Position numbers and translations under genes: made by a program | The notes under the pieces: model-generated | Told to the model about the DNA's origin: nothing | The model's input: the letters and a program-made list of their open reading frames with translations, nothing else | Databases searched by the model: none | Shown: positions 33,736-58,200 of the stretch, in pieces | How the letters are laid out: every line of letters begins with the position of its first letter | Position numbering within the stretch: position 1 is the stretch's first letter | NCBI GenBank assembly: GCA_024743055.1 | Contig: JANSXH010000010.1 | Location: 1 to 64,000 of the forward strand | Source: Pseudomonadota bacterium | GTDB taxonomy: Bacteria; Pseudomonadota; Alphaproteobacteria; Sneathiellales; Sneathiellaceae | Length of the DNA stretch: 64,000 nt | Direction of reading: 5' to 3'

Positions 33736-33736
33736 A

Positions 33737-38302: not shown

Positions 38303-38755
38303 CTATCCTGGCTGTGAAGTCTCATCAATAATCTCGTTCAGCAGCTCTTTCAGATGCTCAAGCTTTTCGGAGCCGATATTGGTCTCGAATTGATGTTGAA
38401 ATTTGGTTGCATGGGCACTGAGCTTTTGATGAAGTTCATAGCCGGCATTGGTAATGAACACCAACACTCGCCGCTGATCATTTGGATCGAGGGACCGGAG
38501 CACAAGACCATTCGCGACCATTTTATCCAGCATTTTCGTTAGCGCCGGATGGTTCATCAAGACAATTTCAGCCAGGTCGCCCATAGACCGACCCTTTTCA
38601 TCACTGAGCACATCCAGAATGCGCCAATGCTCTACCTGAACACCTTCGATACGAAGCTGCTTCTCCAATTTGAGATGAACGCCCCGATGCGCCTGGGCGA
38701 GGACATAAGCGAGATTGTCCGCTATTTTTTCCTTCGAGATATCCATAAATGCCAT
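38303..38755 (-). CDS. MarR-family transcriptional regulator
   Basis: 150 residues. The winged helix reads VQVEHWRILDVLSDEKGRSM, then LAEIVLMNHPALTKMLDKMV as recognition helix, with the wing RRVLVFITNAG and a C-terminal dimer helix. The start is the ATG at 38755, with another ATG three codons later. It is divergent from the AmiC-like gene over 114 bp; CATTATTAATG (38785-38795), nearly palindromic, is a weak operator candidate. It may control the amide locus, since no AmiR-type antiterminator is visible there. Confidence 0.87.
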   Translation of the reverse strand: MAFMDISKEKIADNLAYVLAQAHRGVHLKLEKQLRIEGVQVEHWRILDVLSDEKGRSMGDLAEIVLMNHPALTKMLDKMVANGLVLRSLDPNDQRRVLVFITNAGYELHQKLSAHATKFQHQFETNIGSEKLEHLKELLNEIIDETSQPG

Positions 38756-38869: not shown

Positions 38870-40015
38870 ATGATGTCTATGGACCTAAGCCGTCGATTTA
38901 TTGCGGGAAACCCAGCAGTTGGATCACAGATCCTAGCGGCAAACGGATGGGAATTTTCAGCAAAAGAGGATCGTTTCCGCATTGGGCTATTGGTCCCGAT
39001 GTGCGGCTCTGCTGGCCTTTGGGGCCCGTCCTGCATCGCCAGCGCCCAGGTTGCCCTTGCTGAATTGAATGCTGAGAATGGCATTATGGGCAAGCCGGTG
39101 GAGCTGGTTCTTGTTGATGCCGCGATCGAGTCGGAGTCAGATCTCTATCACACTATTCATGACATGATCGAGTTCAATGAGATCGATGCCATCGTTGGCA
39201 TGCATATCAGCGCTGTGCGACAGCAACTGGCTAAAGTCGTTGGCGGGCGTGTCCCTTATGTTTATACGCCTTTATATGAAGGTGGCGAGGATAGCCCTGG
39301 TGTTTACACCATTGGCGAGACGCCCGGCCATCAGCTCACGCCGGCTATTCGTAGCATTACCAAGCGGCACAAGGTTAGAAACTGGGCGCTTGCCGGTAAT
39401 GACTATGTGTGGCCGCGCGCGTCCAATCACATTGCCAAACAGTACCTTCAGCAAATTGGCGGCAATGTCGTCTGCGAGCATTATATCCCCTTTGGTATCG
39501 ATGAAACGCAAACGCTGATTGACGATTTCATTGCCAAAGGAGTGGAAGCCGTATTGCTTTCCTTTATTGGCCAAGACGCTGTCGATTTTAATCGCGTGTT
39601 CGGCGCCCTCGGACTGGATCAGAGCATCATACGTTTGTCCTGCGCTATTGAAGAAAACGGCTTGCTGGCAATTGGAGCGGAAAATTCCAAGCGGCTTTAT
39701 TCTTCTTCCTCGTATTTTTCGTCCCTCGACACGTCGTCCAATAACTGTTTCAAGGAGAAATATTACGGGCTGCATGGGGAGCGAGCTCCGGCATTGAATT
39801 GCCTAGGTCAATCCCTGTATGAAGGGGTTCAGTTCTTGGCTGAGCTTATGCAGAAATATGGTAGGGATGCAGGTCATCTCAATAACAGACAGCTACCTGC
39901 GATCAGATATCGCTCAGCACGGGATGCAGCCTATCTCAACAACATGAACAAGAAGCTGCCGATTTACCTTGCCAGAGCCGACGGATTTAAGTTCTCAATC
40001 CTCGAAACTCTTTAA
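38870..40015 (+). CDS. AmiC-like cytoplasmic amide-sensing protein
   Basis: 381 residues, close to Pseudomonas AmiC (about 385). It has the Peripla_BP_6 fold (RIGLLVPMCGSAGLWGPSCI, ELNAENGIMGKPVEL, YVYTPLYEGGEDSPGVYTIG) but no signal peptide, so it should stay in the cytoplasm as a sensor rather than a transport receptor. In Pseudomonas AmiC silences the antiterminator AmiR until an amide binds. The partner here is not visible; the divergent MarR gene or something outside the window may do that job. It is followed by a 267-bp AT-rich gap before the flotillin gene. Confidence 0.75.
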   Translation: MMSMDLSRRFIAGNPAVGSQILAANGWEFSAKEDRFRIGLLVPMCGSAGLWGPSCIASAQVALAELNAENGIMGKPVELVLVDAAIESESDLYHTIHDMIEFNEIDAIVGMHISAVRQQLAKVVGGRVPYVYTPLYEGGEDSPGVYTIGETPGHQLTPAIRSITKRHKVRNWALAGNDYVWPRASNHIAKQYLQQIGGNVVCEHYIPFGIDETQTLIDDFIAKGVEAVLLSFIGQDAVDFNRVFGALGLDQSIIRLSCAIEENGLLAIGAENSKRLYSSSSYFSSLDTSSNNCFKEKYYGLHGERAPALNCLGQSLYEGVQFLAELMQKYGRDAGHLNNRQLPAIRYRSARDAAYLNNMNKKLPIYLARADGFKFSILETL

Positions 40016-40282: not shown

Positions 40283-41884
40283 ATGATTTGGTTTGCAGCG
40301 CTCATAGGCGCTCTCATTATCCTGGTTATTGGCATCGTATTTCTGCGAGCTTTCTACGTTAAGGCAACCCGAGAGGTATCCCTTGTCCGCACCGGATTTG
40401 GTGGTCAGAGGATCGTCATTGATGGGGGATGTTTGGTACTTCCTATTCTGCATCAGGCACAAAAGGTGATGATGTCGGCAGTCCCAATCAATGTGTCACG
40501 ACAGGGAACCCAATCCTTTATCAGCCAGGATCATCTTCGGGTCGATATTGAAATGAATTTCGAGGTACGGGTAGCCCCGGATGATAAAGGTGTTGCCACC
40601 GCAGCCCAGGCACTGGGCGCTCGAATTGCCCGCGGAGGGGAGGCCTTGCAGGAGGTATTGGAGAGCAAAATTCTTGATGCGATCCAAACTACCTGTGCGG
40701 CTAAAGCCCTGGAAGAAATTCACAGTGACCGCAAAGCCTTTACCGATCAAGTGTCGGAGGCGGTTGCTACTTTTGTGCAGGGGCTCGGCCTTCGCCTCGA
40801 ATCCGCTTCTCTCCTACATCTCGACCAGGCAACCTTTAGCTCCTTCGATGAAAATAACGTTTTCAACGCAATTGGTATGAGACGGGCGACGGAACTGGTA
40901 TCACGCAACCATCGCGAAAGAGTCCAAATTGAGACGGAATCCGATGTGGTGGTGCGGGAAAGCAGGCTGACACAAGCCCAACGTCGTATAGAAATTGATC
41001 AGGCGGAAAAAGAAGCAGAAATTGCTCAGCAGGCTTACCTCGCGCGCCTCCAAGCCAGTACGGAAGCCGAATCCGTGTCCCAGCAGGTCAAATCCTCCCT
41101 GATTTCGGAAGAAACCAGCCTTGCCAAGGATAAGGATGTCAAGGCCTTGCAGATCGCCCATGACGAGGATCTGCGCCGCAAGGAAATGGAAGCAATTCGC
41201 GAACTCGAAGCCGTCAAAATTGATCACGCCATCTTCCTTGCCAACAAACGAGCGGAAGAAGCGGCGGCAAAAGCCGCGGAGGAATCTGCTCGGGCCCAGG
41301 TGTTGCTGGCCGCCGAAGATGTTCAGACGAAAAAGGAAAAAGCGGTCGCCGAGCGGGAGAAGGAAGTCGCCCTTCTTCGTTTGCGCAAAGATCTTCAGGT
41401 CGAGCAGGAGAAAACCAAATCCGATGCCGATCTCGATACTGTTCGGGTGGCGTCAGAAGCCGAGGCTATCGAAGCCCGAGCAGCAGCAGAAAAGGCTCGC
41501 ATGGAAGCCGAGGCGAAAGGACTGTCGGCCAGAATTGCGGCAGAAAATGGCCTCAGCGAAGCCATCATGGCCATGCGGCTTGAGGAGCGCCGGCTTGACC
41601 GCCTGCCAGAAATCCTTGGCCAGATGATGAAGCCGGTCGAGAAAATCGACAGCATTCGCATCAACCAGATCGGCGGGGTCGGCGGCTCGGGTGAGGGTGC
41701 TCAGAACGGCGTCGATGGCGCCTTTGGGGCGGCCATGGACCAGATCCTCGGAATGGCCGTGCGGCTGCCAGCCATGAAGCAAATGGGAGAAGAGATTGGC
41801 GTCGATTTCGATGCAAATCTCGGCGGTAGAACGGCCGATTATGCCAACCGAATTAAATCGCGAAAAGAAACCAAGGAATCCTAA
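40283..41884 (+). CDS. Flotillin/SPFH-domain membrane scaffold protein
   Basis: 533 residues. One N-terminal membrane segment (WFAALIGALIILVIGIVFL) is followed by an SPFH domain (about 28-215, QRIVIDGGCLVLPILHQAQK). A long charged coiled coil rich in Ala-Glu-Lys repeats covers about 215-430, and a Gly-rich patch (IGGVGGSGEGAQNGVDGAFG) occurs near 465. It resembles YqiK-type flotillins, which organise membrane microdomains. Ribosome site AAGGGAGA. It lies 14 bp before the solute-binding gene and therefore appears to belong to the amide transporter operon, an unusual partner. The alternative is that it is merely co-transcribed. Confidence 0.87.
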   Translation: MIWFAALIGALIILVIGIVFLRAFYVKATREVSLVRTGFGGQRIVIDGGCLVLPILHQAQKVMMSAVPINVSRQGTQSFISQDHLRVDIEMNFEVRVAPDDKGVATAAQALGARIARGGEALQEVLESKILDAIQTTCAAKALEEIHSDRKAFTDQVSEAVATFVQGLGLRLESASLLHLDQATFSSFDENNVFNAIGMRRATELVSRNHRERVQIETESDVVVRESRLTQAQRRIEIDQAEKEAEIAQQAYLARLQASTEAESVSQQVKSSLISEETSLAKDKDVKALQIAHDEDLRRKEMEAIRELEAVKIDHAIFLANKRAEEAAAKAAEESARAQVLLAAEDVQTKKEKAVAEREKEVALLRLRKDLQVEQEKTKSDADLDTVRVASEAEAIEARAAAEKARMEAEAKGLSARIAAENGLSEAIMAMRLEERRLDRLPEILGQMMKPVEKIDSIRINQIGGVGGSGEGAQNGVDGAFGAAMDQILGMAVRLPAMKQMGEEIGVDFDANLGGRTADYANRIKSRKETKES

Positions 41885-41898
41885 CAGGGAGATTTTCC

Positions 41899-43119
41899 AT
41901 GACCATGAACAGAAGACATTTTTTAACCGCAACGGCTGCTTTGGCAGGGGCCAGCTTACTGCCGCTCTCGGCTTCGGCTGCAGATACGGTAAAGCTGGGC
42001 TCCGTCCTTGATACCTCCGGTATTTTTGATGCCTATGGCAAACCCATGGATATGGCCATGAGGCTCGCCGTTGAAGAGATCAACGCCGCTGGCGGCCTGA
42101 ACGGTAAGATGATTGATGTGACCGCCTATGACACGCAATCAGATATGGCGCTTTATACTCAATATGGTCGGCAGTTGACGCAGCAGGATGAAGTCGATGT
42201 GGTCCATGGTGGTATCCTATCCGCTTCCCGGGAGGCCATCCGGCCGACCATGCGGAAAACCAATACCCTTTATTTCTATAATGTCCTCTATGAAGGCGGT
42301 GTTTGTGATCGCAATATCTTCATCAACGGCGTAACTCCCGCTCAACAGGTAGAAGCGCTTATTCCTTTTGCCATGAACAAGGCCGGTAAGAAGGTTTATG
42401 TCTTGGCGGCTGATTATAACTATGGACAGATTACTGCCAAATGGATCCAGAAATATGTAGCAGAAAATGGCGGTGAGACCGTCGCTGTTGATTTCTTCCC
42501 GCTGGACGTTTCTGATTTCGGCTCCACCATTGCAAAGATCCAAGCGGCTGATCCAGATCTCATTGTTGCGTCCCTGGTTGGCGGGGCGCATTTGTCTTTC
42601 TTCCGTCAATGGGCCGCTGCGGGTATGAACAAGAAAATTCCAATGGCGTCTACGACATTGGGAGTTGGCAACGAGCACAAGGTCCTGACGGCTGAAGAAG
42701 GCGATGGGATCATGGTCGCATATAACTATTCCCAAGAGTTGGATACCCCGGCAAATAATGCGTTCAAGAAGAAATGGGCAGAAGCCTATGGCGACGCTAA
42801 TGGCGTCCATGAAATTGCCGTATCCAACTATCAGGGTGTTTTGACCTGGGCAGAGGCGGTGAAGAAAGCCGGCTCAACTGACAGAGATATGGTGATTGAA
42901 GCTCTAGAATCCGGCCTGTCCATCGAAGGACCAGCTGGGACCGTTACCGTTGATCCCAAAACCCACCATGCCGTGCTTGATGTGCATATCATGGAATTTG
43001 ACGGGCAGAAAATGAAGGTTCTGGAAACGCTCAAGCAACGTCAGCCCATCGATACACAAGCTGTCTGTGATCTTGAGGCAAATCCGAACGACAACCAACA
43101 ATATGAGATCAAGTTTTAG
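41899..43119 (+). CDS. Amide/urea-type ABC substrate-binding protein (Tat signal)
   Basis: 406 residues. The N-terminus MNRRHFLTATAALAGASLLP is a twin-arginine signal ending ASA before ADTVKLG. The fold is that of UrtA/FmdD/AmiC proteins (SVLDTSGIFDAYGKPMDMAM, EEINAAGGLNGKMI, NTLYFYNVLYEGGVCDRNIF). Resemblance to short-chain amide and urea receptors, rather than amino acid receptors, supports an amide substrate. It is followed by a hairpin before the permease genes, which would keep this product in excess. Confidence 0.85.
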   Translation: MTMNRRHFLTATAALAGASLLPLSASAADTVKLGSVLDTSGIFDAYGKPMDMAMRLAVEEINAAGGLNGKMIDVTAYDTQSDMALYTQYGRQLTQQDEVDVVHGGILSASREAIRPTMRKTNTLYFYNVLYEGGVCDRNIFINGVTPAQQVEALIPFAMNKAGKKVYVLAADYNYGQITAKWIQKYVAENGGETVAVDFFPLDVSDFGSTIAKIQAADPDLIVASLVGGAHLSFFRQWAAAGMNKKIPMASTTLGVGNEHKVLTAEEGDGIMVAYNYSQELDTPANNAFKKKWAEAYGDANGVHEIAVSNYQGVLTWAEAVKKAGSTDRDMVIEALESGLSIEGPAGTVTVDPKTHHAVLDVHIMEFDGQKMKVLETLKQRQPIDTQAVCDLEANPNDNQQYEIKF

Positions 43120-43233: not shown

Positions 43234-44100
43234 ATGGACCTGGCAGCTGTCATTGTCGTTGAAACTGTTTACGCCGTTGCAAGCCTGATCCTGATCAGCG
43301 CCGGTCTCGCCATCGTGTTCGGCATGATGAAAGTCATCAATCTGGCGCATGGTGAGTTCATGATGATGGGCGGTTATGCCACCATCACTGCGGTCAATCT
43401 TGGGATCAATATCTATATTGCGATGTTGGTGATAGCGCCAATTGTCGTGGGTCTTATTGGCCTGCTAGTAGAACGACTGGTGATACGACATCTCTATGGC
43501 CGATTGGTTGATACCATGCTGGCGACCTGGGGATTGAGCCTGTTTTTTGTTGGTATCGTCACCATGATATTCGGCAACACGACGACCGGAATCTCGACCC
43601 CTATTCCCGGCATCTCGATCGGGGATTATCAGATCAATGGCTATAACTTCTTCATCGTCATTATTTCCATCCTGCTTGTCCTGCTGATTTACTTTGTCTT
43701 GAAAGGCACTCGCTTGGGACTTATCGCCCGCGGGACAATGCAGCGCTCAGACATGGCTGCCGCGCTCGGCTACAGTCCCGACCGAATATATATGGCGACA
43801 TTTTTTGTCGGCTCGGCTCTCTCGGGTCTGGCCGGCGCTGTGCTCGCGCCGCTCGTCGGCCTAGTTCCTTCATCCGGAGGGGCCTATATCGCAAAAGCCT
43901 TTATCACCGTGATCTCTGGAGGGCCGTCGGTCATCGCCGGGCTGATCAGCAGCGGCGGATTTTTTGGAGTGGTCAATCAGTTCTTTACCTTTGCCATTTC
44001 CCCCGTAGTGGGAGAGGTGGCGCTGCTGGTTTCTGCCGTGATCTTGCTCCGGCTCTTACCGCAAGGGGTGACGGGTCGCTTCCTTAAAGGAAAGCTGTAA
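43234..44100 (+). CDS. Amide/urea-type ABC permease (UrtB/LivH-like)
   Basis: 288 residues with about eight hydrophobic stretches. Family sequences are INLAHGEFMMMGGYATITAV and the ATPase-facing loop TRLGLIARGTMQRSDMAAAL. FITVISGGPSVIAGLISSGG near the C-terminus corresponds to the VGG-type loop. It overlaps the next permease gene by one base (TAATG). Confidence 0.88.
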   Translation: MDLAAVIVVETVYAVASLILISAGLAIVFGMMKVINLAHGEFMMMGGYATITAVNLGINIYIAMLVIAPIVVGLIGLLVERLVIRHLYGRLVDTMLATWGLSLFFVGIVTMIFGNTTTGISTPIPGISIGDYQINGYNFFIVIISILLVLLIYFVLKGTRLGLIARGTMQRSDMAAALGYSPDRIYMATFFVGSALSGLAGAVLAPLVGLVPSSGGAYIAKAFITVISGGPSVIAGLISSGGFFGVVNQFFTFAISPVVGEVALLVSAVILLRLLPQGVTGRFLKGKL

Positions 44101-45131
44101 TGCGGGAAATCACCTTGCAGCGTTTTGCCATTGCCTTGGTCATTGCCGGAATCGTCATGACGTTACTGCCGCTGATGGTCGGAACCTATACCCTGACCCT
44201 TCTGCTGGTCTATGGCATGCTGGCCATGAGCCTTGGCCTGATCTGGGGGTTTGGCGGAATTCTTTGTTTTGGTCAGGCGGCGTTTTTTGGTTTGGGCGCT
44301 TATGCCTATGCTATCGCCGCCATTAATTTCGGGGAAAGCACTGTACCGATGATTATTGCCGTGCTGGTCCCTGCTGCCTTTGCCGCCGTTCTCGGCGGGA
44401 TGATGTTCTATGGGCGGCTTGGGGATGTGTATCTCGGGGTAATTACCCTGGTTGTCACATTGATCTTTTTCAAATTCATGAACTCAACGGCGGGACCGGA
44501 ATATGTCATCGGCACGGCACGCCTCGGTGGGTTTAACGGTATTCCGGGTTATCAGACCCTGAATGTGCCCGGTCTACCAGAGCAATATATCTATGGCGAC
44601 AGCCTCTATTACGTGACCTTTATTGCCCTTTTTGTCGTCTATTGGCTGGTCAATTGGGTGCTGCAAAGCCCGTTTGGCCGGGTCGCTGTTGCTATCCGCG
44701 AGAACGAGCAACGTGCGTCTTTGATGGGCTATGACATCCGGGCGCGCAAGACTGTTCTATTCGCTGTAGGTGGAGCCATTGCCGGATTGGCTGGGGCCTT
44801 TTATGCCAACTGGGCCGAAATCGTAACGCCCGGCCTGTTCAGTCTTGGTCAATCCGCTGAGATCATCATCTGGTGCATTGTCGGAGGCCTCGGAACTCGG
44901 CTCGGGCCGATCCTGGGAGCCGCCGGTCTCGCCTATCTCAAGTTCAAGCTGGGACAGCAGATGCTCATCGATAACGCGGTGATCACCGGCATCATTCTGG
45001 TTTTGTTTGTGCTGTTCCTGCCAAAGGGGCTGGTTCCGGCGATCGAGAAAATCTGGCGCTTGAGTGTCGGGCGAAAGCGGGGGCGGCGTCCGGCTCGATC
45101 GCGGCGGGGAAGGGCGGCGAGCCATGGCTGA
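44100..45131 (+). CDS. Amide/urea-type ABC permease (UrtC/LivM-like)
   Basis: 343 residues. Hallmarks are GGILCFGQAAFFGLGAYAYA and SPFGRVAVAIRENEQRASLM, with GGLGTRLGPILGAAGLAY near the end. The C-terminus has an unusually basic tail ([17 protein letters not shown]) whose codons overlap the start of the ATPase gene by 8 bp; the tail may be a by-product of that overlap. Confidence 0.88.
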   Translation: MREITLQRFAIALVIAGIVMTLLPLMVGTYTLTLLLVYGMLAMSLGLIWGFGGILCFGQAAFFGLGAYAYAIAAINFGESTVPMIIAVLVPAAFAAVLGGMMFYGRLGDVYLGVITLVVTLIFFKFMNSTAGPEYVIGTARLGGFNGIPGYQTLNVPGLPEQYIYGDSLYYVTFIALFVVYWLVNWVLQSPFGRVAVAIRENEQRASLMGYDIRARKTVLFAVGGAIAGLAGAFYANWAEIVTPGLFSLGQSAEIIIWCIVGGLGTRLGPILGAAGLAYLKFKLGQQMLIDNAVITGIILVLFVLFLPKGLVPAIEKIWRLSVGRKRGRRPARSRRGRAASHG

Positions 45132-45840
45132 AACCGTTCTTGAAACCGTCAATCTGACCATGCGCTTCGGCGGGGTCACTGCCTGTGACAATGTCGATTT
45201 CAGCCTTAAAGCCCGAGAGCTGCGCTGTCTGATCGGCCCCAATGGAGCGGGAAAAACCACCTTCTTCAAATGCCTCACTGGTTTGCTGACACCGACGGAA
45301 GGTCAGGTCATCATGCGCGGTGAAGAGACAACAAACTGGGATACCCATGTGATTGCTTCGGAGGGTGTGGGGATTAAGACCCAGGTGCCAAATGTGTTGG
45401 ACGGGGTATCCGTCCAGGAAAACATCTGGCTCGCGGCCCGACGATTCTGTTCGAGCGCAGACGCCAGTCGAAAAACTGAAGAAGTTATCGACCGCCTTTC
45501 CCTAAGCACGATTGCGACCAGTGAAGTCGGGCGTCTTGCTCATGGGGAGCGGCAGCGGGTCGAACTTGGCATTGTTGCCGCCGGGGATCCCTGGCTTGTG
45601 CTGCTGGACGAGCCCGCCGCCGGCATGACGTCCGATGATGTGGAACAGATGATCGAAATTATCCATGACATGACCAAAACGGCCGCCGTCATCATTGTCG
45701 AGCATGACATGCAGTTTATCCGTTCCGTTGCCACGGAAGTCACCGTCTTCCACCAGGGCCGCATCCTGATGGAGGACCATGTGGACACCGTGATGTCAGA
45801 TCCAACGGTCCGCAATGTGTATCTTGGAAAGAAGGCGTGA
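45124..45840 (+). CDS. Amide/urea-type ABC ATPase (UrtD/LivG-like)
   Basis: 238 residues from MAETVLETVNLTMRFGGVTA; an upstream frame from 45064 lies inside the permease gene. Walker A GPNGAGKTTFFKC, signature AHGERQRVELGIVAA (the LSGGQ core reads LAHGERQ), Walker B LVLLDEPAAGM, switch region IIVEHDMQFI. It stops 3 bp before the fused ATPase-amidase gene. It is expected to form the heterodimer with the N-terminal domain of that fusion. Confidence 0.88.
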   Translation: MAETVLETVNLTMRFGGVTACDNVDFSLKARELRCLIGPNGAGKTTFFKCLTGLLTPTEGQVIMRGEETTNWDTHVIASEGVGIKTQVPNVLDGVSVQENIWLAARRFCSSADASRKTEEVIDRLSLSTIATSEVGRLAHGERQRVELGIVAAGDPWLVLLDEPAAGMTSDDVEQMIEIIHDMTKTAAVIIVEHDMQFIRSVATEVTVFHQGRILMEDHVDTVMSDPTVRNVYLGKKA

Positions 45841-45843
45841 ACA

Positions 45844-48237
45844 ATGACGGGAGACGATCTTTTATTCCAGCTCAAAGGTCTTGCCAGCGGCTACGGCAAG
45901 GTCCCGGTCCTGCATGGGGTTGATCTCAATGTTGAAGAGGGTGAGATCGTTGGCATTCTCGGCCATAACGGTATGGGCAAGTCAACTCTTTTGAAAACGG
46001 CCATGGGTTTCTTACCGGCAACAGCCGGCAGCATTCGTTACCGCGGAAATGATATCACCCGCTTCTCGCCCAATGACCGGGCGCAACTGGGGATCGCTTA
46101 TGTGCCGCAGGGGCGAGGCATCTTTCCGCAACTTAGCGTGCGCGATAATTTGCGCTTTGCCTATATGGATAACGGACAAGGAGATGAAACGGATACTCTG
46201 GCAGATGTACTGGCGGATTTTCCGAGGCTTGAGCGGCTATTGGATCGGGAGGGGGGTGCGCTCTCCGGCGGGGAACAGCAGCTTTTGGCCCTGGCCCGTT
46301 CCCTGATGTCAGATCCGGAATTCTTGCTGCTGGACGAACCGACGGAGGGGATCCAGCCGTCGATCATTGAAGAAATGGCGGAGACCCTTCTCGAGATCCG
46401 TAAAAGTCGGGATTTCGGTATTTTGCTGGTGGAGCAGAATTTTGACTTCATTGCTGACCTTTCCGACCGGGTTTTGGTGCTGGAACGGGGGCGGGTGACG
46501 GGGGAGCTTTCCCGATCCGACCTTTCAGATACGAATAAGGTCAACAGTTTCCTCGGCTTTGGGGCCGCGCGGACGACCCGGGCTGGCGCGGATATTGCCC
46601 TCTCTAAATCTTCACAGCCTAGATCCCAAACACCTCCTGCCGAGGCCCGCAGAACGGCCCGAGCGGAGCCTTACGTATCAACGGTGCCGGAGCCCGGCCA
46701 GACCAACAATTCGGTGACATATATGACAGTAAAACGCCCCAGCCTGACCCAGATGCGTGACATGGCAGACCAGTTTGGCATGTCTCTGAGCGACGCCCAG
46801 CTTGCAGAATTCTCCGAGATCATGGAGCCTTATATCCAAGCTTACGATCGCCTGGATGCCATGCCTGACAATTTGCCGGAAGTGCGCTATCCCCGCTCTC
46901 CAGGCTATCGTCCGACACCGAGTGAGAACCCGCTTAATGCATGGTATTACAAGACGGATATCAAGGGGGCTCTGGATGGCCCGCTCCGCGGTAAGAAAAT
47001 TGCGATCAAGGATACGGTTTGTGTTGCCGGGGTGCCGATGATGAACGGATCCTCGATCATGGAAGGCTATACGCCAGAGATTGACGCCACCATCATCACC
47101 CGCATTCTGGATGCGGGTGGCACCATTGCCGGCAAGTCCCATTGTGAAAATCTGTGTCTGTCCGGTGGCAGCCATACAAATGCTACCGGTCCGGTCCATA
47201 ATCCCTGGAAGCACGGCTATATGGCCGGTGGTTCTTCGAGCGGTTCGGCAGCTCTTGTTGCCGCCGGTGAGGTGGATATGGCCATCGCCGGGGATCAGGG
47301 AGGATCCATCCGCATTCCTTCCTCGAATTGCGGATGTTATGGGATGAAAGCGACCCATGGACTGGTGCCCTATACCGGTGTCATGCCTGTTGAACAGACT
47401 ATCGATCATGTCGGCCCTGTGACCAATAATGTGGCCGACAATGCCCTGTTTCTGGAAGTCCTGGCGGGGGAAGACGGCCTCGATCCCCGGCAATATGCTC
47501 CGAAAACCTACCGCTATACGGAGGCCCTCGGCAAGGGCTGTGCGGGATTGCGGATCGGGGTATTGAAAGAAGGTTTTGATCGGCCGGAAAGCGAAGCCGA
47601 CGTGGATGCCAAAGTGCGGGCAGGAGCGGCCCGGCTTGCGGAGCTTGGCGCCATTGTTAGTGAAGTCTCAATCCCCGAGCATGATCTCGCTGGGGATGCC
47701 TGGGTCGCGATAACGATTGAAGGATTGCAAGATCATATGATGCATGGCAATTGTGCCGGCACCAATTATAAAGGCCTGTTTCTGCCCTCGATGATTGATC
47801 ATTTTGCCAGCTGGCGCGGCCGGGCGGATGAGCTTTCGGATTCTTTGAAAACCTGCATGTTCATCGGTGAATTCTTCCAGACCCAGTATCGGGGCAGGTT
47901 CTATGGCAAGGCTCAGAATCTGATGCGGCTGGTGCGGGCGAAATACAAAGAAGCGCTCAAATCCTATGATCTGCTTCTTGTACCGACAGTCCCCATGAAA
48001 CCGCAGAAAATACCGGGCCCTGCGGTTAGTATGACTGAGTATGTGACCCGGGCTTTTGAAATGGTCGGCAACACAGCGGCCTTCAATGCCGGCCATTTTC
48101 CGGCGATGTCAATTCCATGTGGTCTTAGTGAAGGTTTACCGATAGGATTAATGCTTATCGGGGATGATTATTGTGAAACGACGATCTACCGTGCGGCACA
48201 TGCCTTCGAGCAGAGCGGGGACTGGCGCACGTTTTGA
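45844..48237 (+). CDS. Fusion of UrtE/LivF-type ABC ATPase and amidase-signature amidase
   Basis: 797 residues in one uninterrupted frame. Residues 1-240 form a complete UrtE-like ATPase: Walker [13 protein letters not shown], signature [14 protein letters not shown], Walker [21 protein letters not shown]. Residues about 241-293 are a Ser/Pro/Arg/Ala-rich linker. From residue 294 ([20 protein letters not shown]) the chain matches a full-length nitrile-pathway type amidase including its helical N-terminal domain. Catalytic Lys389 is in AIKDTV, the Ser pair 464-465 in GGSSSGSAA, nucleophile Ser488 in [10 protein letters not shown]. An internal ATG at 46723 (codon 294), with a weak GGTG site 8 bp before it, might give free amidase of 504 residues. 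The role would be import of an amide and its hydrolysis at the inner face of the transporter. Confidence 0.9.
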
Positions 48238-48253
48238 AACGGGAGAATGCACC

Positions 48254-50020
48254 TTGTCTATTTTGGATGAAAGCCTTGCGGATCAGATTACGGGCGGGAC
48301 GGGAAAAGCAGCAAGCACTTATGAAGCCGCCGTTATAGCACCTCAAGATAACAAGTCTTATGTTGCCGGGGATAAATCGGACCCCTTGAAATATATGACC
48401 ATCCCGGAGATGGTCCGTCAAACCGTGGCCAAGTTTGGCCCGCGCGATGCCGTTGTCTTTCCGGCTGAAGACCGAACCCTGTCCTATTATGATTTTGATC
48501 GGGAGATTGATCTGCTGGCCTCTGGCTTCCTGGCGCTTGGACTGAAAAAAGGGGATCGGGTCGGCATCTGGTCACCCAATAATTTTGAGTGGATTTTGAC
48601 CCAATATGCGACAGCCCGTATCGGCGTCATTCAGGTCAATATCAATCCGGCCTATCGCTTGTCGGAGTTGGAATATGCCTTGAATAAATCCGGCTGTAAG
48701 GCCCTGATCACGGCGGAGTCTTTCAAGACTTCCGACTATCTGTCGATGATCCGGACCCTGGCCCCGGAAATTGATACGAGTGAGCCCGGACGGCTTTCCG
48801 CGGACAAATTACCAGCCCTTGAAATCGTCATTGGCATCAGTGAAGATCCAGGGCCCGGTATCTTTCCGTTCAAGGAAATACAGGCTCTGGGCGGCCCGGC
48901 CCAGCAATTAAGACTGGATGACATTACCAAGTCCCTGTCGCCAGACGATCCTATCAATATTCAATTTACCTCCGGGACGACCGGGGCGCCAAAAGGGGCG
49001 ACCCTGACCCATTTCAATATCGTCAATAACGCCTCTCAGGTTGTGGATCGGATGAATTTCACTGAGGCCGACCGGCTCTGTATTCCAGTGCCTCTCTATC
49101 ATTGCTTTGGCATGGTCATGGGGTCGCTGGGTTGTGTGACCCACGGCGCCAGTATGGTCTTTCCCGGCGAAGCATTTGATCCGGAAGAAACTCTGGCAGC
49201 GGTCGCCAAAACCAAGTGCACTGCGCTTTATGGCGTGCCCACCATGTTTGTCGGCATGCTCGATCATCCAAAGCTGAAGGACTATGATCTCTCAAGCTTG
49301 CGAACCGGGGTGATGGCTGGTGCGCCCTGTCCGATCGAAGTGATGAAACGGGTCAATCAGGAAATGAACATGTCGGAGGTTACCATCTGCTATGGCATGA
49401 CGGAAACCTCCCCGGTGTCATTCCAGAGCGATGTGGATGATCCGATTGAGAAAAGAGTGTCAACCGTTGGCCGGATCCTGCCGCATGTGGAGGTCAAGGT
49501 GGTGGACGAAAACGGGGTCGCCGTCCCCGTCGGCCAGCAGGGAGAGCTCTGGACCCGTGGTTATTCTGTCATGCAGGGCTATTGGGATGAGGAAGAGAAA
49601 ACAAAAGATGCCATCGTCGATGGTGGCTGGATGCGGACGGGTGATCTCGCCATCCTAGATGAGGAAGGATATTGCCAGATTGTTGGCCGCCTCAAGGATA
49701 TGATCATTCGCGGTGGTGAGAATATCTATCCCAGAGAGATTGAGGAATTTCTCTTTACCCATCCTGATATCCAGGAAGTGCAGGTCTTTGGTATTCCCGA
49801 TGAAAGGTTTGGCGAAGAAGTCTGCACCTGGATCGTGGCGCGCGATGACGCCGAGATCACCGAGCAGGGCATTAAAGATTTCTGTAAAAATCAGATCGCT
49901 CATTATAAAGTACCCCGACATGTCAGGGTCGTTTCAGAATTACCGATGACGGTCACCGGAAAACCGCAGAAATTTGTCATGCGGGATGAAATGGTGAAAT
50001 ATCTGGAAGGCGGGGCATAA
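48254..50020 (+). CDS. Medium-chain/fatty acyl-CoA synthetase (AMP-forming)
   Basis: 588 residues from TTG at 48254, which follows GGGAG at 8 bp and sits just after the amidase stop; the longer frame begins inside the amidase gene. ATP loop [50 protein letters not shown], and the catalytic Lys in [13 protein letters not shown]. This is the ACSF2/FadD-like group. It would activate the carboxylic acid freed by the amidase to its CoA thioester. It lies 16 bp after the fusion gene. Confidence 0.88.
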
Positions 50021-50059: not shown

Positions 50060-51691
50060 ATGGATCTTGATCAGTTTAACCGCGATTATCAGCAGGCGAG
50101 ATCCGAGTATCATCTCGACATCCCTGATGACTTCAATTTTGCTTTTGATGTGATTGATGCGCGGGGTCGGGAGAGGGACGCCGTTTCCGTTATCGCAGTG
50201 TCGCGGGATGGCTCGAAAATCGAGGATGTGACCTATTCGCAGTTTTCTGATCAGTCCAGCCGGCTTGCCAATGCCCTAACGTCCCTCGGGATATCTAAAG
50301 GGGATTTTGGCTGTATCGTTATTGGCCGGGTGCCAGCCTGGTATACGGTGCTGTTTGGCTGCATGAAGATCGGGGCTGTTTCTATGCCCGGGACCAATCT
50401 GCTGACGGCCAAGGATCTGGCCTACCGGATTCAAAAGTCAGAAGCGAAATTCATTATTGTGGCGCCGGAGCACTGTCCGAAATTTGAGGAAGTGCGGGAT
50501 CAATGCCCAACGATTGAACATTGCATTGTCACCGGCGGGGAATATCCGGGCTGGCTTTCTCTTGAAGAGCTGATTGCGGAGGCATCGCCGGAATTTGACC
50601 GGGCATCCGCCGAACCGACTGTCGCCAGTGATATGATGATGGCCTATTTTACCTCCGGCACCACCTCCCTTCCTAAAATGGTGCCGCGGGATTTCGGCTA
50701 TGGGTTGGCCCATGCGGCGACGGCTCTATTCTGGATGGATTTGCGCGATGGGGATGTGCATTGGACTCTGACTGATACGGGCTGGGCCAAGGCGGCCTGG
50801 GGTCTGTTATTTCCACCGTTGCTGGCCGGATCAAAGATTGTTCTCTATGACGGGGAAGGGGCGTTCGATCCGATTTTCCATTTGGAATTCATTGAAAAGC
50901 TGAAGGTCTCCACTTTCTGCGCGCCGCCAACGGTCTATCGTCTGTTCGCACAGCAGGATCTGACACCTTTTGATTTCTCGAGCCTGCGCCGGTCTCTCGG
51001 TGCCGGAGAACCGCTCAACCCGGAGGTTATCCGTTATTGGGAGGAGCATACGGGCAATATCATCGCCGATGGCTATGGCCAGACGGAGACCATCAATATT
51101 GTCGGTAATTTCCCCGGAATGGAAGTGCGCTATGGTTCCATGGGACTGCCGGTGCCCGGATTTGATGTGGATATCGTCGATGATGATGGTAATCGTCTGC
51201 CTGATGAGGAGGTCGGGCATATCGCTGTGGCAACGACCGGCGACTGGCCCAAAGGCCTGTTCAACGGCTATTATACGGGCGCCGAGCCGGATACCGACTC
51301 CTTTCATGACGGGTGGTACTATACGGGTGATACAGCGAAGCGGGATAAAGATGGCTATCTCTGGTTTGTTGGTCGCGCCGATGACCTGATCAGTTCCGGC
51401 GGCTATCGGATCAGTCCGTTTGAGGTGGAAAGCGCCCTTCTAGAGCATCCAGAAGTGGTCGAAAGCGCCGTGATCGGTGTGCCTGATGAAACCCGCGGGC
51501 AGCTTGTTAAGGCCTATATCATCCTCACGGATCCGAGCGGAGCAAGTGACGCGAAGGCGTCAGAAATTCAGGATTTCTGCAAGAACCTCACGGCGCCTTA
51601 CAAATATCCGCGGGAAGTGGAATTCGTCACCAGCCTGCCCAAAACTATCTCCGGCAAGATCCGCCGGGTGGAGCTGCGCGAAGAGAGCTAA
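50060..51691 (+). CDS. ACSM-like acyl-CoA synthetase (AMP-forming)
   Basis: 543 residues; GGGAGGAAAAT precedes the ATG. Motifs are FTSGTTSLPKMVPRDF, DGYGQTETINIVGNFPGM, YYTGDTAKRDKDGYLWFVGR and PKTISGKIRRVELRE with the catalytic Lys. Sequence order is that of medium-chain/benzoate-type ACSM synthetases. It is 39 bp after the first ligase; two ligases of different subfamilies in one locus suggest either a range of acids or two successive acids in a pathway. Convergent with the IalB-like gene, 20 bp away. Confidence 0.88.
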   Translation: MDLDQFNRDYQQARSEYHLDIPDDFNFAFDVIDARGRERDAVSVIAVSRDGSKIEDVTYSQFSDQSSRLANALTSLGISKGDFGCIVIGRVPAWYTVLFGCMKIGAVSMPGTNLLTAKDLAYRIQKSEAKFIIVAPEHCPKFEEVRDQCPTIEHCIVTGGEYPGWLSLEELIAEASPEFDRASAEPTVASDMMMAYFTSGTTSLPKMVPRDFGYGLAHAATALFWMDLRDGDVHWTLTDTGWAKAAWGLLFPPLLAGSKIVLYDGEGAFDPIFHLEFIEKLKVSTFCAPPTVYRLFAQQDLTPFDFSSLRRSLGAGEPLNPEVIRYWEEHTGNIIADGYGQTETINIVGNFPGMEVRYGSMGLPVPGFDVDIVDDDGNRLPDEEVGHIAVATTGDWPKGLFNGYYTGAEPDTDSFHDGWYYTGDTAKRDKDGYLWFVGRADDLISSGGYRISPFEVESALLEHPEVVESAVIGVPDETRGQLVKAYIILTDPSGASDAKASEIQDFCKNLTAPYKYPREVEFVTSLPKTISGKIRRVELREES

Positions 51692-51711: not shown

Positions 51712-52239
51712 CTACTGTATTTTCTCGTAGGCTGATGTGAATCCAATCAGGGACATCGGGACCATGAGGGGCTGCCTGTTTGCCGATTGCACATTTATGT
51801 TGAGCTTCTGACCGTTAAAGAGCTGCTTCAGTTGATCTGAGGTGAGGGGGCTGGCGGCATAGCATCCGTTAGCTTCGCAAGTCTGAAATTCGAGTTTCTG
51901 AAATTTGTTGCTGTCTACATCCAATGTAACACCCGCCGGAAGATAGGTGCCAAGCGGCCCTTGGATCATCAGAACAGGCTTCAGGGTCTCCGCCGGAACA
52001 CGAATGGTGATCTGCATTAGCAAGCGGCCGGTTTGGGTGACGACGGCGCGTTGTTCAATTGAACAATCCGGAGCTGCTTCGCGGGAGGTAGCGGCACATC
52101 GGACCGACCAGGATGATTTGGCGCCAGTCGCCTGGGTATCGGGAGATGCGGTCTGCGCCTGACTGTTCGAGATTGTAATTCCAGCGAGAAGGAGTGTTCC
52201 GATGGCAACCAGCGTTGTAAATATCTGAGGTAACTGCAA
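51712..52239 (-). CDS. IalB-family (invasion-associated locus B) exported protein
   Basis: 175 residues from TTG at 52239, after AGGAAAGGAAAC; a longer frame would run into the autotransporter gene. Signal peptide LQLPQIFTTLVAIGTLLLAG ends near SQAQ. The mature part shows WSVRCAA, CSIEQRAVVTQTGRLLMQIT and CEANGCYAASPLTSDQLKQL, the four-cysteine pattern of the family. It begins 14 bp after the stop of the giant autotransporter gene, so the two are probably one transcript. The family is periplasmic; its molecular role is unknown. Confidence 0.85.
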   Translation of the reverse strand: MQLPQIFTTLVAIGTLLLAGITISNSQAQTASPDTQATGAKSSWSVRCAATSREAAPDCSIEQRAVVTQTGRLLMQITIRVPAETLKPVLMIQGPLGTYLPAGVTLDVDSNKFQKLEFQTCEANGCYAASPLTSDQLKQLFNGQKLNINVQSANRQPLMVPMSLIGFTSAYEKIQ

Positions 52240-52253
52240 TTTTGTTTCCTTTC

Positions 52254-55200
52254 CTAGAAGGTTGCGACCAGTCTGAGTGACCCGCCATAAGAGCGATAGT
52301 TGTCTGCAAATTGAGCTGTTCCGCCAATCCTGAAGGAAACACCGATAGGGGAAACCCAATCGAGACCCAGTTGGGCGTCGAAATAGGGATCTTCCGGTGT
52401 TCGAGAGACAGTAAAGGCGGGGACGAGATCATCGTCTCCTTGCATAGTGGCCGTCAGGCTTGTTCTGCCGTTGTTTTTACCAATCAGGGAATAGGTGACG
52501 CCGCCGCTGATATAGGGTCGCAAGACACTGCCGTCCTGAGCGATAAATTCCGTCGCAATGGTTAAGCCCGGCCGAATAGATCCATAGGCGTTGCCGCCGG
52601 ATTCAATATCAAGGTTAGTTGCTCCCGCGCCGGTTTCCTTGATGGCATTATGATGAAAGTATCCGCCCCAGGCTTCTATTTCCGGTGCAAGAGAAATGCC
52701 GCCGAGATAGGCCTGTTGAACGATACGCGCCTGGCCACTGCCAAAATATATATTCTGCTTACCTTGAGCGGTGACGGTCGAGCCGGTCAGGGTTTGTGTG
52801 CGATCATGGTCGTAGGAAGCAAACCCGCCAATTGCTGCAACGGAAAAAATCGCACCGCCGTTATTCTCATAACTGAGGCCGGCGCCTCCCTGAACCCGGT
52901 ATCCTTCACTGGTGGCATAATCTTCCGTATCCGTGCTCGTCTGCGCATAGCTTACCCCGAACAGGGCATTCATCCGCTCTGACAGGCGTCCACCAATTCC
53001 CAATTGAAGATCGATGGCAGTTTCCTCAAATCCCAGGCTTTCAAATTCCCCGTCCTGTGTTGATCTTTGTACGTCCAGTTGCAACCAGCTACAGCCTTCC
53101 GTTTCCGGGGAGAGGCCGTTCTTGGGGCATTGCAACAGGCGGCGACCGAATTGCCTGTTGCTGAGAACGGTCGCCTGTTCCGTTTGCAAATAAGGCTCGG
53201 CAGAAAGCTGGTTATAATAGTTAACCAAGGTCACTGCATCCGGCGCTTCCAACACCGCATTGAGAACAGCTGTCAGATTCTCCGGCTCTCCGGCAGCAAT
53301 TGTGTCGACCAGATAATTGGCAATGGCGGTCTGATTGGGGTTGAAATCTCCGGCCGCTGGGGAGAAATCCACGTCCCAGGCGAGGAAGACATTTCCATCA
53401 TCATCGGTTCGCAATTCATAGTTCACGACCTCCGTATCCGGCGCGATAATTGTGAGGTCGTCGAATTCCTCAAACGAGGTAAGGATGGTCACTTCGCCGT
53501 TTTCATCGGGCTCGACAAAGGCCCCGTTGAGGGCATTGACGACAACTGTTCCGGCCAGGTTTGACACCCCGGTCACGTCAATTTCGTCCGAAGTATTCAC
53601 ACCGGCATTATTGTCGGCAAAGTCCACATCCAGCAAAATTTCGCCGTTCTCTGTTTGCAGAAAATCACCGCTAATGGTTGTCACGCTAACGCTGTCTGCT
53701 CCGCCGGGAGAAAGAATACCATCGTTGATGAACTGATTGTCGGATCCGCCCAGATCAACGGTTTCTCCTGCATTGAGTGTCCCGGAATTGATGACCTTGT
53801 TGTCGGCTTCTGCCAAAAATATCGATCCGGTCATTGTTCCGTTATTGAGGATTGTGCTGCCGGTATTTTCAACAACGGCAAATTCAGAGGCCGTTTCCGG
53901 AGTCTCCAGCAGCGAAACATCTGTGCTTTCATTATCGGCAGTTTCTCGTGTCTCGATGGCGATGCCAAGAACGCCCTGCTGTGTGCCGACAATCCCATTA
54001 TTCTCAATCACATTTCCAGATCCATCCAGCACGAGGATTCCGACCGGATCATTGCCAACACCCTCCCCGTCCGGATCGGATCCACCGGTAATGACGCTGT
54101 CTTCGCCGATATTGATAAATATCTGTCCATCGCCATTCAGACCAATGCTCTGGGCGACAATACCGATTGAATTGTCACCGCTGGTGACGACACTGCTATT
54201 GACGGAAACGCTTACCGTTTTTCCGGTTCCGGTTGCCCCGAGCGCATAATCATCCGAGGCATCGCCTGTGTTGCCGTCCGCGCCGCCGCTGGCGCTTTGG
54301 GCAAAAATACCGACAGAGCCGTCGCCGGTGGTTGTGATGTCCCCCGTATGGAGCACGGTTACAGTTCCGGCGTCACCGTCATCGCCGGCTGTTCCGGCAA
54401 AATTCAGGCCGATATCAGAGCTGGAACTGCCTGCCGTCCCTCCGCCGCCGCCGACACTCTGCGCCCAGACACCATGGGCGCCGTCTCCGGTGGTGATAAT
54501 TGTCGAAGAGGTTGTCACAGAGACATCGCCGCCATTACCGCCATCGCCCCCGTCTTGAGACACCCCGACGCCAATCCCCATATCGATATCGGTTCCGAAA
54601 AAGCCTTGTGAGACCGTTCCACTCACGCCACCACCGCCCCCCACACTCTGGGCGAAGATCCCGAGGGATCCAGAGCCGCTCGTACTGATATCACCGCTAT
54701 TGCTGACGGTGACAGCATCGCTGTCCCCGGCCGCTCCGCCGCTGCCGCCAACGGTGACCCCGACAAACCCTCCGTCCGTATTACCGCCCTGACCACCGCC
54801 ACCGCCGATACTCTGGGCGAAAATGCCGCTGGACCGGTCTCCGGATGTAATAAGGATGTTTTCGTTGGTGACCGAGACCGCCCCGCCATTTCCGGAAGCC
54901 CCGCCGGTGCCGCCGACATTCACCCCGATTTCCTGCCAGAAGGCGAGGGGCGGGTTCAGGATCGAATCCGCTGTGTCAAAGATATCTACGGGAAGGCCCG
55001 TCACGATATTCTGCCCGATGGAGCCATTGCCTCCTTCGCCACCGCCAGCCCCAACACTCTGCGCATAAATGGCGTCTGATCCGTCGGCGCTTGTCTGTAT
55101 GCCGCCTTTATTAACGACCGTGACCGTTTCGCCATCACCACCTTCCCCGCCGCTGCCGCCGATTGAGACCTCAATCGCCAGGCTTTTCTCGGTGAAATCG

Positions 55201-58200
55201 GGGGTCTCACAGGCCGGAATAGCCGGATTGCTGCAGGAGCCGATTTCCATTGCGAAGGCATCCGACGCACCGCCGCTCCCACCGCCGCCGCCAACGCTTT
55301 GGGCAAATATGCCTTTGGCCGAGCCAAGAACGGTCGTGAGCGTGCCCTCGTTATGGACGGTAACGGTCCCGCCGCTGGCCCCGTCTGCAGCATTTCCCCC
55401 AATCGCCACATTAACGGTGAGATTGCGGTCGTTGGATTCATCGTCGTCGTCTTCCTCCCCACCGCCACCGGGTTTGGTCAGGTCAATAACGCCGGAGAAA
55501 GACGAGCCGCCATTCCCGCCGCCGCCGCCAATACTTTGCGCATAGATCGCTGTTGAGGCGACACCGGTACTTGTTACATCGCCCGTGTTTGTTAGCGTCA
55601 CCGCCTCTCCGATGCCGCCAGCTCCACCGGTTCCGCCAACCGCCACATTGATTTTTAGGTTGGTACCGTCGCCTTTGTAGGACAGGATCGCAGCCCCTGC
55701 CAGACCTCCGGCCCCTCCACCGCCGCCGACACTCTGGGCGAGAATGCCTTCGGCAAGATAGCCGGTTGTCGTCACATCACCGCTATTGGTCAGCTGGACT
55801 TCACCGCCGTCCCCACCGGTACCGCCTGATCCCCCAACTGAGACACCGATGGATTTGGGCGATCCTTCAGATCCGCCGCCTGCCAGGGTTCCGGCAAAGG
55901 ACAGTCCGCCATTACCGCCGCCGCCGCCGACACTCTGAACAAAGAGGCCGCGCGCGGACCCGCCGGAGGTCGACACATCACCCGAATTGTCTACGGTTAC
56001 AATATCTGCGGTATTTCCGGTGCCGCCACCGCCGCCGACCGCGACATTCAGGTTATTGGAGGAGTCTGTGGAGAGATTGGCAGATCCGGAAACTGACAGC
56101 CCGCCGGTACCACCGCTCCCGCCAATACTTTGGGCCTGGATGCCGTGAGCATAATCCCCGGCGGTTACAATCCTTATGCTGTTGGTCAGGTCTACCGTGT
56201 TGCCGGTTCCGCCTGATCCGCCACTTCCACCAATCGTGACACCTACGTTTGTGGTAGAGGATCCGGTATTGCTGAGGCCGAGATTTGCCGCGAAACTAAA
56301 CCCACCGTCACCACCGCCGCCACCAACACTCTGGGCGAGGAGACCGACGGCGCCATCAGCCTTGGTCCAGACAAGTATCCCATCTTGACTGGTAAGGCTT
56401 GCGGCACCCGCGGTTCCGCCATCCCCACCGCCACCGCCAATAGACACGCCAATATCTGCTTTACCTTCAAAGGTGATATCTGCTGCGCCGCTAAATCCAC
56501 CGGTTCCGCCGCCGCCGCCGACGCTTTGGGCAAACAGGCCATGGGCTCCTGCGCCACTTGTGACAACAGATCCTGCATGTTCGAGGCTGACATCATCGGC
56601 GGTTCCGCCGTCACCGCCGCCGCCGCCAACGGAAACGCCAAGGCTGGCATTTGTGCTGAGAGAGCCCGACAGGCTGAAGCCTCCATTTCCGCCCGAGCCA
56701 CCGACACTTTGAGCCAATATACCGTAGGAGAGTGATCCTGCGGTTACGATGGTTCCGGTGCTGTCCACGGTGACGGCACCTGCGAAACCGCCATCTGCGG
56801 CAGCGCCGCCAACACTGACGCTGAGCGCGCCTTTTTTACCGCCATCAAAGGCACCGCTGAAGCCGCCGTTACCGCCACCCCCGCCAACGCTCTGGGCAAG
56901 AATTCCGCTGGCGTTATCGCCAGATGTCGACAAGCTGCCCTCGGAGGTCACCTGAACGATGCCACCGTCGCTGCCCGCACCACCAGCTCCCCCGACACTC
57001 ACTCCGACCGCGGCACTGTCGTCGCTGATCACAAGACTGCCGGTAACACTGAAACCGCCATTGCCACCACCACCACCGATACTCTGGGCAAGAATCGCAG
57101 TGCCGTTTGCGCCTTCGGTGATGAGGTCGCCTGAGTTATCGATTGTCACATCGGCACCGAAACTGCCGATACCACCGTCACCCGCGACCGAGACACCGAG
57201 AGATCCGCTGGTGTCTGAGCCATAAGTCAGGTCACCGCTGACACTGAAACCGCCGTTACCGCCACTACCACCCACACTTTGGGCAAATATACCGGAGGCG
57301 TTATCGCCGGATACCTGTATGGAACCGATATTGATGACGTCGACGGTTGAGCTGGTCGCGCCATCCCCGCCGCCACCAGCAACGCTTACACCGACAGTTG
57401 CGCTGCTTTCGGAGCTGACGGTTAAGGCGCCGTCAACGCTGAATCCCCCATTGCCGCCGCCACCACCTAGGCTTTGAGCAAACACCCCATGGGCGCCGGA
57501 GCCTTCGGTCATGATTCCACCTTCGTGATAGAGGGACACCTTGTCGGAAGTGCCGCCGCTTCCCCCGCCACCGGAGACACTCACATTGGCGCTGGAGGAG
57601 GTTGTTAATGATCCCGCAACGCTAAACCCGCCATTTCCACCGGCGCCGCCCAGACTTTGGGCAAAGAGCCCGTAGGAGTGATTTCCGACAGTACTGATCG
57701 TGCCGGCATTCTCCAGATGAACCGCCGCTCCGATGCCGCCGTCGCCGGCACCACCAGCTACGCTAACCTGGGCCGATAATGTATTGCTCACGGCTCCGGC
57801 AACACTAAATCCGCCATTGCCGCCACCTCCACCAATGCTTTGGGCTTGCACACCAACGGCGTTGTCTCCGCCTGTTGTGATATCTCCCAAGGTTATGACG
57901 TTGACGGCACCGGCATCATTTCCACTGCCACCAGAACCACTGACGGAAACCCCGATATCGCCGCCACTGTCACCTGTGTCCAGGCTGGCAGCTATGCTGA
58001 AGCCGCCATTGCCGCCGCCACCGCCAATACTCTGGGCCAGAATGGCGGTGGCATTGTCCCCGGATGTCTGTACCGGACCGAAATTGCCAAGTTCGACATT
58101 TGACGCGACGCCGCCCGTACCGCCGGCGCCAGCAACGCTCACGCCGACAGCAACCGATGAGCCGGAAGAGATCGTGAGGGCCCCTTCGATGCTGGCACCG

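Follow-up and report, generated by a model that had tools for sequence, protein, structure and literature searches.

An importer ATPase joined in frame to an amidase in an alphaproteobacterial operon, with signs of selection for an internal start of the amidase

The stretch of DNA analysed here, referred to below as the window, comprises the first 64,000 nucleotides of contig JANSXH010000010.1 (assembly GCA_024743055.1), from a member of the Sneathiellaceae. Its forward strand carries an importer operon of the HAAT kind, with a binding protein, two permeases and two ATPases (Table 1), in which the second ATPase runs on without interruption into an amidase: positions 45844-48237 (+) form one uninterrupted reading frame, which opens with ATG, closes with TGA and counts 797 codons. 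The fused loci that we collected from other genomes have a common order, namely second binding protein, flotillin, binding protein, two permeases, ATPase D, fusion and acyl-CoA ligase.

Table 1. Features of the fused gene and of the operon around it (window coordinates)
Feature	Position	Strand	Remarks
MarR-family regulator, divergent from the operon	38303..38755	-	A MarR gene occupies the corresponding position in Sulfitobacter sp. THAF37
Second substrate-binding protein	38870..40015	+	
Flotillin/SPFH protein	40283..41884	+	In fused operons, absent from the unfused ones examined
Substrate-binding protein	41899..43119	+	Tat-type signal; related to urea-binding proteins and AmiC
Permease, BPD_transp_2	43234..44100	+	UrtB-like
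Permease, BPD_transp_2	44100..45131	+	UrtC-like
ATPase D	45064..45840	+	UrtD/LivG-like; ORF as listed, true start uncertain
Fused gene, ATPase E joined to amidase	45844..48237	+	797 aa, predicted 86.3 kDa
ATPase E half	45844..46563	+	UrtE/LivF-like; residues 1-240; TIGR03410 262.5 bits, under the 285.8 cut-off
Linker	46564..46722	+	About residues 241-293; Ala/Pro/Ser/Thr/Arg-rich across the family, hypervariable yet in frame
Internal Shine-Dalgarno element GGTGA	46713..46717	+	5 nt before the internal ATG at 46723
Amidase half = predicted free amidase	46723..48237	+	504 aa, 54.5 kDa, from the internal ATG (Met294)
Acyl-CoA ligase, conserved downstream of the fusion	48164..50020	+	ORF as listed; NF009233 835.2 bits, cut-off 832
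Second acyl-CoA ligase	50060..51691	+	Adjoins the operon only in close relatives (80% in L097/L171)

The N-terminal half is an ABC ATPase by its match to ABC_tran (Pfam; residues 23-167, profile positions 1-136 of 137, 115.8 bits versus a cut-off of 25). It fell short of the equivalog cut-offs of both UrtE (TIGR03410, Table 1) and LivF (NF008626, 155.4 versus 441 bits). Urea transport was considered as a firm name for the system and rejected, as no Urt equivalog cut-off was reached and the operon neighbours also scored below theirs. The C-terminal half belongs to the amidase signature enzymes (Pfam Amidase, residues 368-780, 291.1 bits versus 27), and residues 294-796 match positions 1-505 of 506 of NF005565, the NCBIfam model for PRK07235 amidases, with 773.9 bits versus a cut-off of 545. 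In 46 aligned fused proteins the ATPase motifs (Walker A G43/K46, signature S141-G142-G143-E144-Q145 and D164-E165) are invariant, and so are K389, S464, S465 and S488 of the amidase; we take K389, S464 and S488 to be the Lys/cis-Ser/Ser catalytic residues of amidase signature enzymes. Residue 198 of the fused protein, presumably the site of the switch His in many ABC ATPases, is Gln. The nearest solved structures to the amidase half are PDB 3a1k and 3a1i, which we take to be the amidase of Rhodococcus sp. N-771. They are full-length relatives (453.6 bits, residues 6-497 aligned to 6-499), and in the numbering of the amidase half K389/S464/S488 of the fused protein are K96/S171/S195. Because residue 6 aligns to residue 6, Met294 corresponds to the start position of the free-standing enzyme. 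The known relatives, NF005565 amidases included, are separate proteins, whereas the amidase of the window is joined to a transporter ATPase. An earlier note on this DNA had described one 797-codon frame joining a UrtE/LivF-type ATPase to a complete amidase, with the Walker motifs and the Lys389/Ser464-465/Ser488 set intact and the amidase half beginning at residue 294, where free-standing relatives begin. This description holds on every count, the last point resting on the structural alignment and on the homologous ATG used by unfused neighbours.

The importer has the gene order and the domains of the UrtABCDE and LivFGHM importers (Peripla_BP_6, two BPD_transp_2 and two ABC_tran), its best NCBIfam matches are the Urt models, and its binding proteins are akin to those for urea and to the amide sensor AmiC. 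It differs from these importers in that its E ATPase carries an amidase and in that the operon adds a flotillin, a second binding protein and an acyl-CoA ligase. Within the urea/branched-chain kind, FmdDEF is an ABC importer of amides. A flotillin was present in 81 of 81 fused entries with 2.5 kb or more of sequence preceding the binding protein (two of them, L159 and L170, repeat L030 and L080) versus none of six unfused entries; the flotillin at 40283-41884 had no PDB sequence match at E<=0.001. Our filter recorded a ligase after the fusion in 79 of 85 fused entries, and five of the six misses (L065, L081, L106, L109 and L162) show one in their gene listing; the three ligases recorded among 20 entries scored as unfused all belong to contig-cut ones (L097, L140 and L171). 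The true start of the window's own ligase probably lies later than in the listed frame, since its family match begins at residue 63.

Besides that of the window, we obtained 108 distinct fused ORFs from many genera. A first set of 89 came from 113 loci with regions taken from whole genomes, and a hold-out set of 19 from 32 later loci (30 of one family and two on plasmids), which were new by amidase sequence, the other 13 having been dropped as their amidase was already in the first set. A whole-protein scan of 84,980 species genomes gave the best 80 of 102 confirmed loci and, because its ranking favours full-length matches, is no census. A full-length, stop-free fusion was found in 11 of 385 genomes of a sample of the class, the source genome included, in 34 of 394 genomes of one large family and in one of 398 genomes of a sample of the phylum, this one being the source genome itself. 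The amidase was detected at E<=1e-100 in 17 of 95 genomes of a sample of relatives. Five of 23 congeners have the amidase: it is fused in G003, G015 and G019, cut by a contig end with the linker still attached in G013, and unfused in G022. Among plasmid records, three of the 75 matching ones cover at least 80% of the query; two of these three are Sulfitobacter plasmids, on which RefSeq lists a 793-aa frame as one CDS labelled ‘amidase’. One genome, G978, carries two full-length fused copies (C105 and C29), each about 56% identical to that of the window. Viral contigs gave no match to six peptide patterns.

These 108 ORFs bear out the proposal of the earlier note that an in-frame gene fusion, and no chance readthrough, lies at this locus. 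They also bear out half of its expectation that the same architecture would recur elsewhere with a conserved linker: the architecture recurs, but the linker is hypervariable. Its remark that it knew of no described transporter of such design agrees with our finding no paper on an importer ATPase fused to an amidase, in a literature search that covered few subscription journals and is thus weak evidence of absence. Across the family the linker measures 31-95 aa, is probably disordered and varies everywhere except in its first residues (GFGAARSTR-like) and its last three codons; over 11 close pairs, the linker has a pN/pS of 0.56, compared with 0.05 in the amidase and 0.11 in the ATPase. Stops in the 89 linkers amount to 0/4819 in frame 0 versus 104/4730 and 47/4730 in the other two frames, frame 0 being open by construction, as fused ORFs had been selected.

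The fusion likely originated by the joining of two neighbouring genes, since operons of the same order exist in which ATPase E and amidase are adjacent and unfused. In L141, L143, L144, L145, L147, L149, L175 and L176 a transporter of the same type is followed by the amidase as the next gene (SBP-PB-PC-D-E-AMI), beginning at the homologous ATG, with a stop codon and a gap between the two where the window has an open frame. In the first six the amidase directly follows ATPase E, and these six have neither a flotillin nor a ligase after the amidase; in L175 and L176 the two genes are set apart by stop codons and gaps. The homologous ATG of the unfused neighbour amidases stands behind ordinary Shine-Dalgarno (SD) sequences (among the 20 ‘unfused’ starts, L140, probably a cut fused gene, and L150, which is misaligned, are questionable). 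In the amidase tree, 21 fused rows lie on one side of a branch with support 91/94, and one change suffices in 90% of 200 bootstrap trees. The ATPase tree, whose root lies on a long branch, needs three changes, one of them for the ATPase of G022, and a single origin is not seen in it. Left out of the trees were L030 and L080, which duplicate L159 and L170, as well as the second amidase of L147 and three ATPase rows that are long or partial (L103, L139 and L146); L140, cut by a contig end, was counted as fused. On the amidase tree we regard a single origin as likely and two independent fusions as the less probable course. Collectively, the comparisons support a real and ancient in-frame fusion within an importer operon, with the amidase half at its ancestral start codon.

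Most members of the family carry GGTGAC-NNN-ATG directly before the first codon of the amidase, and this element is held at positions where the protein sequence leaves the choice of nucleotide free. The amino acids at codon -4 are diverse (3.25 bits, 89 ORFs), but G occupies its third position in 78 of 85 testable ORFs, versus 38.5 predicted by the codon usage of the respective genes; when only 4/6-fold residues are counted, the figure is 64 of 67 versus 26.0. On the same basis, Val at -3 is encoded by GTG in 53 of 57 ORFs (23.6 expected) and Lys at +3 by AAA in 60 of 69 (25.1 expected). Third-base G is low in linker codons -5 to -11 and in codons +1 to +5. The anti-SD pairing energy at the internal ATG is -7.1 versus -3.6 kcal/mol after synonymous shuffling of the 89 ORFs, whereas 712 control Met codons of the fused genes show no gain (-3.4 versus -3.6). 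The mRNA structure there is weaker than the synonymous expectation in 93% of 42 representatives (<90% identity; z +1.08) versus 50% of 252 control Mets (z -0.11); an overlapping window at +10 codons is equally weak, and a smaller effect is seen at -30 (z 0.54). Over all 108 ORFs, the internal start codon is ATG in 106, GTG in one (L066) and ATC in one (L071). In the latter, from Pseudosulfitobacter koreensis, the GGTGA before the ATC is retained, and the change means that either an unusual start codon is used there or the free form has been lost.

The 19 hold-out sequences were obtained after the internal-start hypothesis had been settled, and they agree with it in aggregate: the anti-SD energy is -8.6 versus -4.7, the structure is weaker and the start codon is ATG in 19 of 19, while 114 control Mets give -3.6 versus -4.0, with weaker structure in 44%. 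Of the hold-out members, nine resemble the first set closely, whereas ten are at 60-63% identity and have a different SD at the same spacing, in which the Arg at -4 is encoded by the rare codon AGG (10 of 10 versus 0.49 expected); as these ten are interrelated, this SD represents one or a few independent events and not ten. A single hold-out member, L189, shows no anti-SD gain (-4.2 versus -4.6). Start codon and SD are thus conserved beyond what the protein sequence demands, the hold-out included. At the level of individual genes the signal is fainter. Synonymous shuffling of genes one by one placed about 10% of the 89 at p<=0.05 and 7.9% on the wrong side of p=0.5; in only 12 of 89 is the internal ATG the one with the strongest anti-SD pairing among the in-frame ATGs of its gene; and the listed SD-like motifs are absent in 8 of 89. 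Since the sequences are related, the z-scores and p-values overstate independence. Under redundancy cuts the pattern is still seen, though in few sequences, with G at -10 in 34 of 42 (<90% amidase identity), 13 of 16 (<80%) and 8 of 10 (<75%). The anti-SD sequence used in the pairing energies was assumed, the host's own 16S 3' end not having been located (no match in its genome at up to one mismatch).

The sequences themselves show the fused frame, how widely it is conserved, the operon around it and nucleotide-level selection for the internal start. On this basis we consider it likely that one gene specifies two products, a transporter-tethered amidase of 86 kDa and a free amidase of 54 kDa, and we infer that both accumulate. 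Initiation at 45844 would yield the 86 kDa protein, with the E-type ATPase of a urea/branched-chain-type ABC importer at its N-terminus and the complete amidase at its C-terminus, connected by a flexible, disordered tether. Initiation at the internal ATG 46723, behind its own selected SD, would yield the free amidase from the same mRNA.

An alternative is that only the fusion is made and that GGTGA-ATG is either a relic from the time when the amidase had its own gene or a pause site allowing the ATPase to fold first. The internal ATG is indeed the ancestral start, some members have a weak motif or none, and SD-like words within genes can slow ribosomes. A relic, however, would be expected to decay, and yet the silent positions are still held in a family whose amidase halves have diverged by up to 43% (the least similar pair being 56.5% identical) and whose linkers cannot be aligned. 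A pause site, for its part, has no need for an ATG at fixed spacing, for AAA after it or for open structure centred on it. Together with the other SD that the divergent subfamily has at the same spacing, this makes both versions unlikely.

The earlier note had expected a single 86 kDa product, that is, a bifunctional subunit whose tether would capture the substrate and could set the direction of flux; no free amidase of importance would then exist. Such a subunit would fit the fused frame, which is real and conserved, but the selection for a start at 46723 does not support it, and we consider it improbable. It is also at odds with the congener G022 (L174/L155), which retains importer and ligase without the tether. 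The importer genes of G022 are 75-87% identical to those of the window, and its ATPase E ends 19 residues past GFGAARSTR, with the ligase immediately next and no amidase remnant detectable by tblastn between the two. At 4.8 kb downstream there is a different, unfused amidase of unrelated lineage (61%). No flotillin match above 100 bits occurs in the 6.6 kb preceding the binding protein, such that amidase half and flotillin are, in this one case, missing together. Because G022 keeps transporter and ligase genes without the amidase half, the tether is dispensable in at least one lineage.

Cleavage of the linker by a protease could likewise furnish separate ATPase and amidase, the fusion merely equalising their amounts, and a hypervariable, probably disordered linker rich in Ala, Pro, Ser, Thr and Arg would suit this. 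Selection for an internal start is, however, hard to explain if cutting freed the amidase, and the linkers listed show no conserved cleavage motif beyond the ATPase-side GFGAARSTR and the start-codon side, for which reasons we regard this explanation as quite unlikely. Finally, a sequencing error or a chance readthrough of a stop has a negligible probability, as 89 distinct fused ORFs from 113 loci plus 19 in the hold-out, together with the single RefSeq CDS on two plasmids, make chance or misassembly an unreasonable cause, and nothing was found in its support. The fused entries L075 and L099 are cut by contig ends, and three further amidase entries (L097, L140 and L171) are cut before the ATPase.

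If both a tethered and a free amidase are indeed made, their stoichiometry can be envisaged as follows. Importers of the urea/branched-chain class contain a D/E heterodimer, with one D and one E ATPase per complex, and as the operon has a single gene for each, one tethered amidase per transporter would be expected. Free copies would pair with the tethered one and/or fill the cytosol. The Rhodococcus amidase pairs; if the present amidase does as well, its partner would come from the free form, in the way that SpaO-short associates with SpaO-long. From the likeness of the binding proteins to AmiC and to those for urea, and from the ligase, which could accept a carboxylate, we propose that the system serves the import of small amides and their immediate hydrolysis. 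An amide entering through the permeases would be hydrolysed near the membrane to carboxylate and ammonia, with some putative gain from the tether, and the conserved downstream ligase would turn the carboxylate into an acyl-CoA. With considerable reservation, we can picture a membrane-anchored amide-assimilation assembly of marine Alphaproteobacteria, in which a flotillin-organised importer bears the tethered amidase, internal initiation within one gene sets the ratio of tethered to free enzyme, giving every tethered subunit a free partner, and the carboxylate passes to the co-encoded acyl-CoA ligase; this fuller picture is possible but rather doubtful.

Parallels exist for parts of this arrangement. 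Peptidase-containing ABC exporters, like the fusion described here, have a hydrolase domain on the cytoplasmic side fused to the transporter; unlike in the window's importer, the peptidase is N-terminal to the membrane domain and trims the exporter's own cargo. In-frame internal initiation separately produces the C-terminal domain of SpaO, whose short form pairs with the long one (PMC13059759), and that of Cas11b (PMC11899642), and underlies proteoforms of ClpB and FruK (PMC11005335). None of the four is a fusion of a transporter ATPase with an enzyme, and the short form is experimentally shown there, whereas it is predicted for the window's gene. In YbbAP-TesA, an ABC transporter complex includes a hydrolase as a working component (PMC12646458); TesA is reported to be a separate, periplasmic and non-covalently associated protein of a Type VII system, in contrast to the covalent, cytoplasmic amidase on an importer considered here. 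What appears to be new is the combination of an importer ATPase-amidase fusion with an internal start, both in-frame internal starts and the partnership of hydrolases with ABC transporters being already known.

Nutrient-processing enzymes are usually thought to meet their substrate in the cytosol. Here, an enzyme is kept covalently on the motor of an importer across many genera, along with a hidden start site that would release the same enzyme in free form. Nature offers a set in which a direct handover from importer to enzyme could be tested, made up of fused operons, unfused operons and G022 without the amidase half. The fusion also illustrates how the RefSeq label ‘amidase’ can hide a transporter subunit and a probable second protein.

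Three further observations concern the remainder of the window. An ORF of 3323 aa on the reverse strand (52254-62225) has no Pfam match at E<=0.001. On the forward strand, 32125-36970 encodes an ImuB-like Y-family polymerase (IMS domains) followed by an ORF of the DNA polymerase III alpha/DnaE type, a pair that we take to resemble an ImuB-DnaE2 mutagenesis cassette. At 51712-52359, on the reverse strand, lies the gene for an IalB-family protein (Pfam PF06776).
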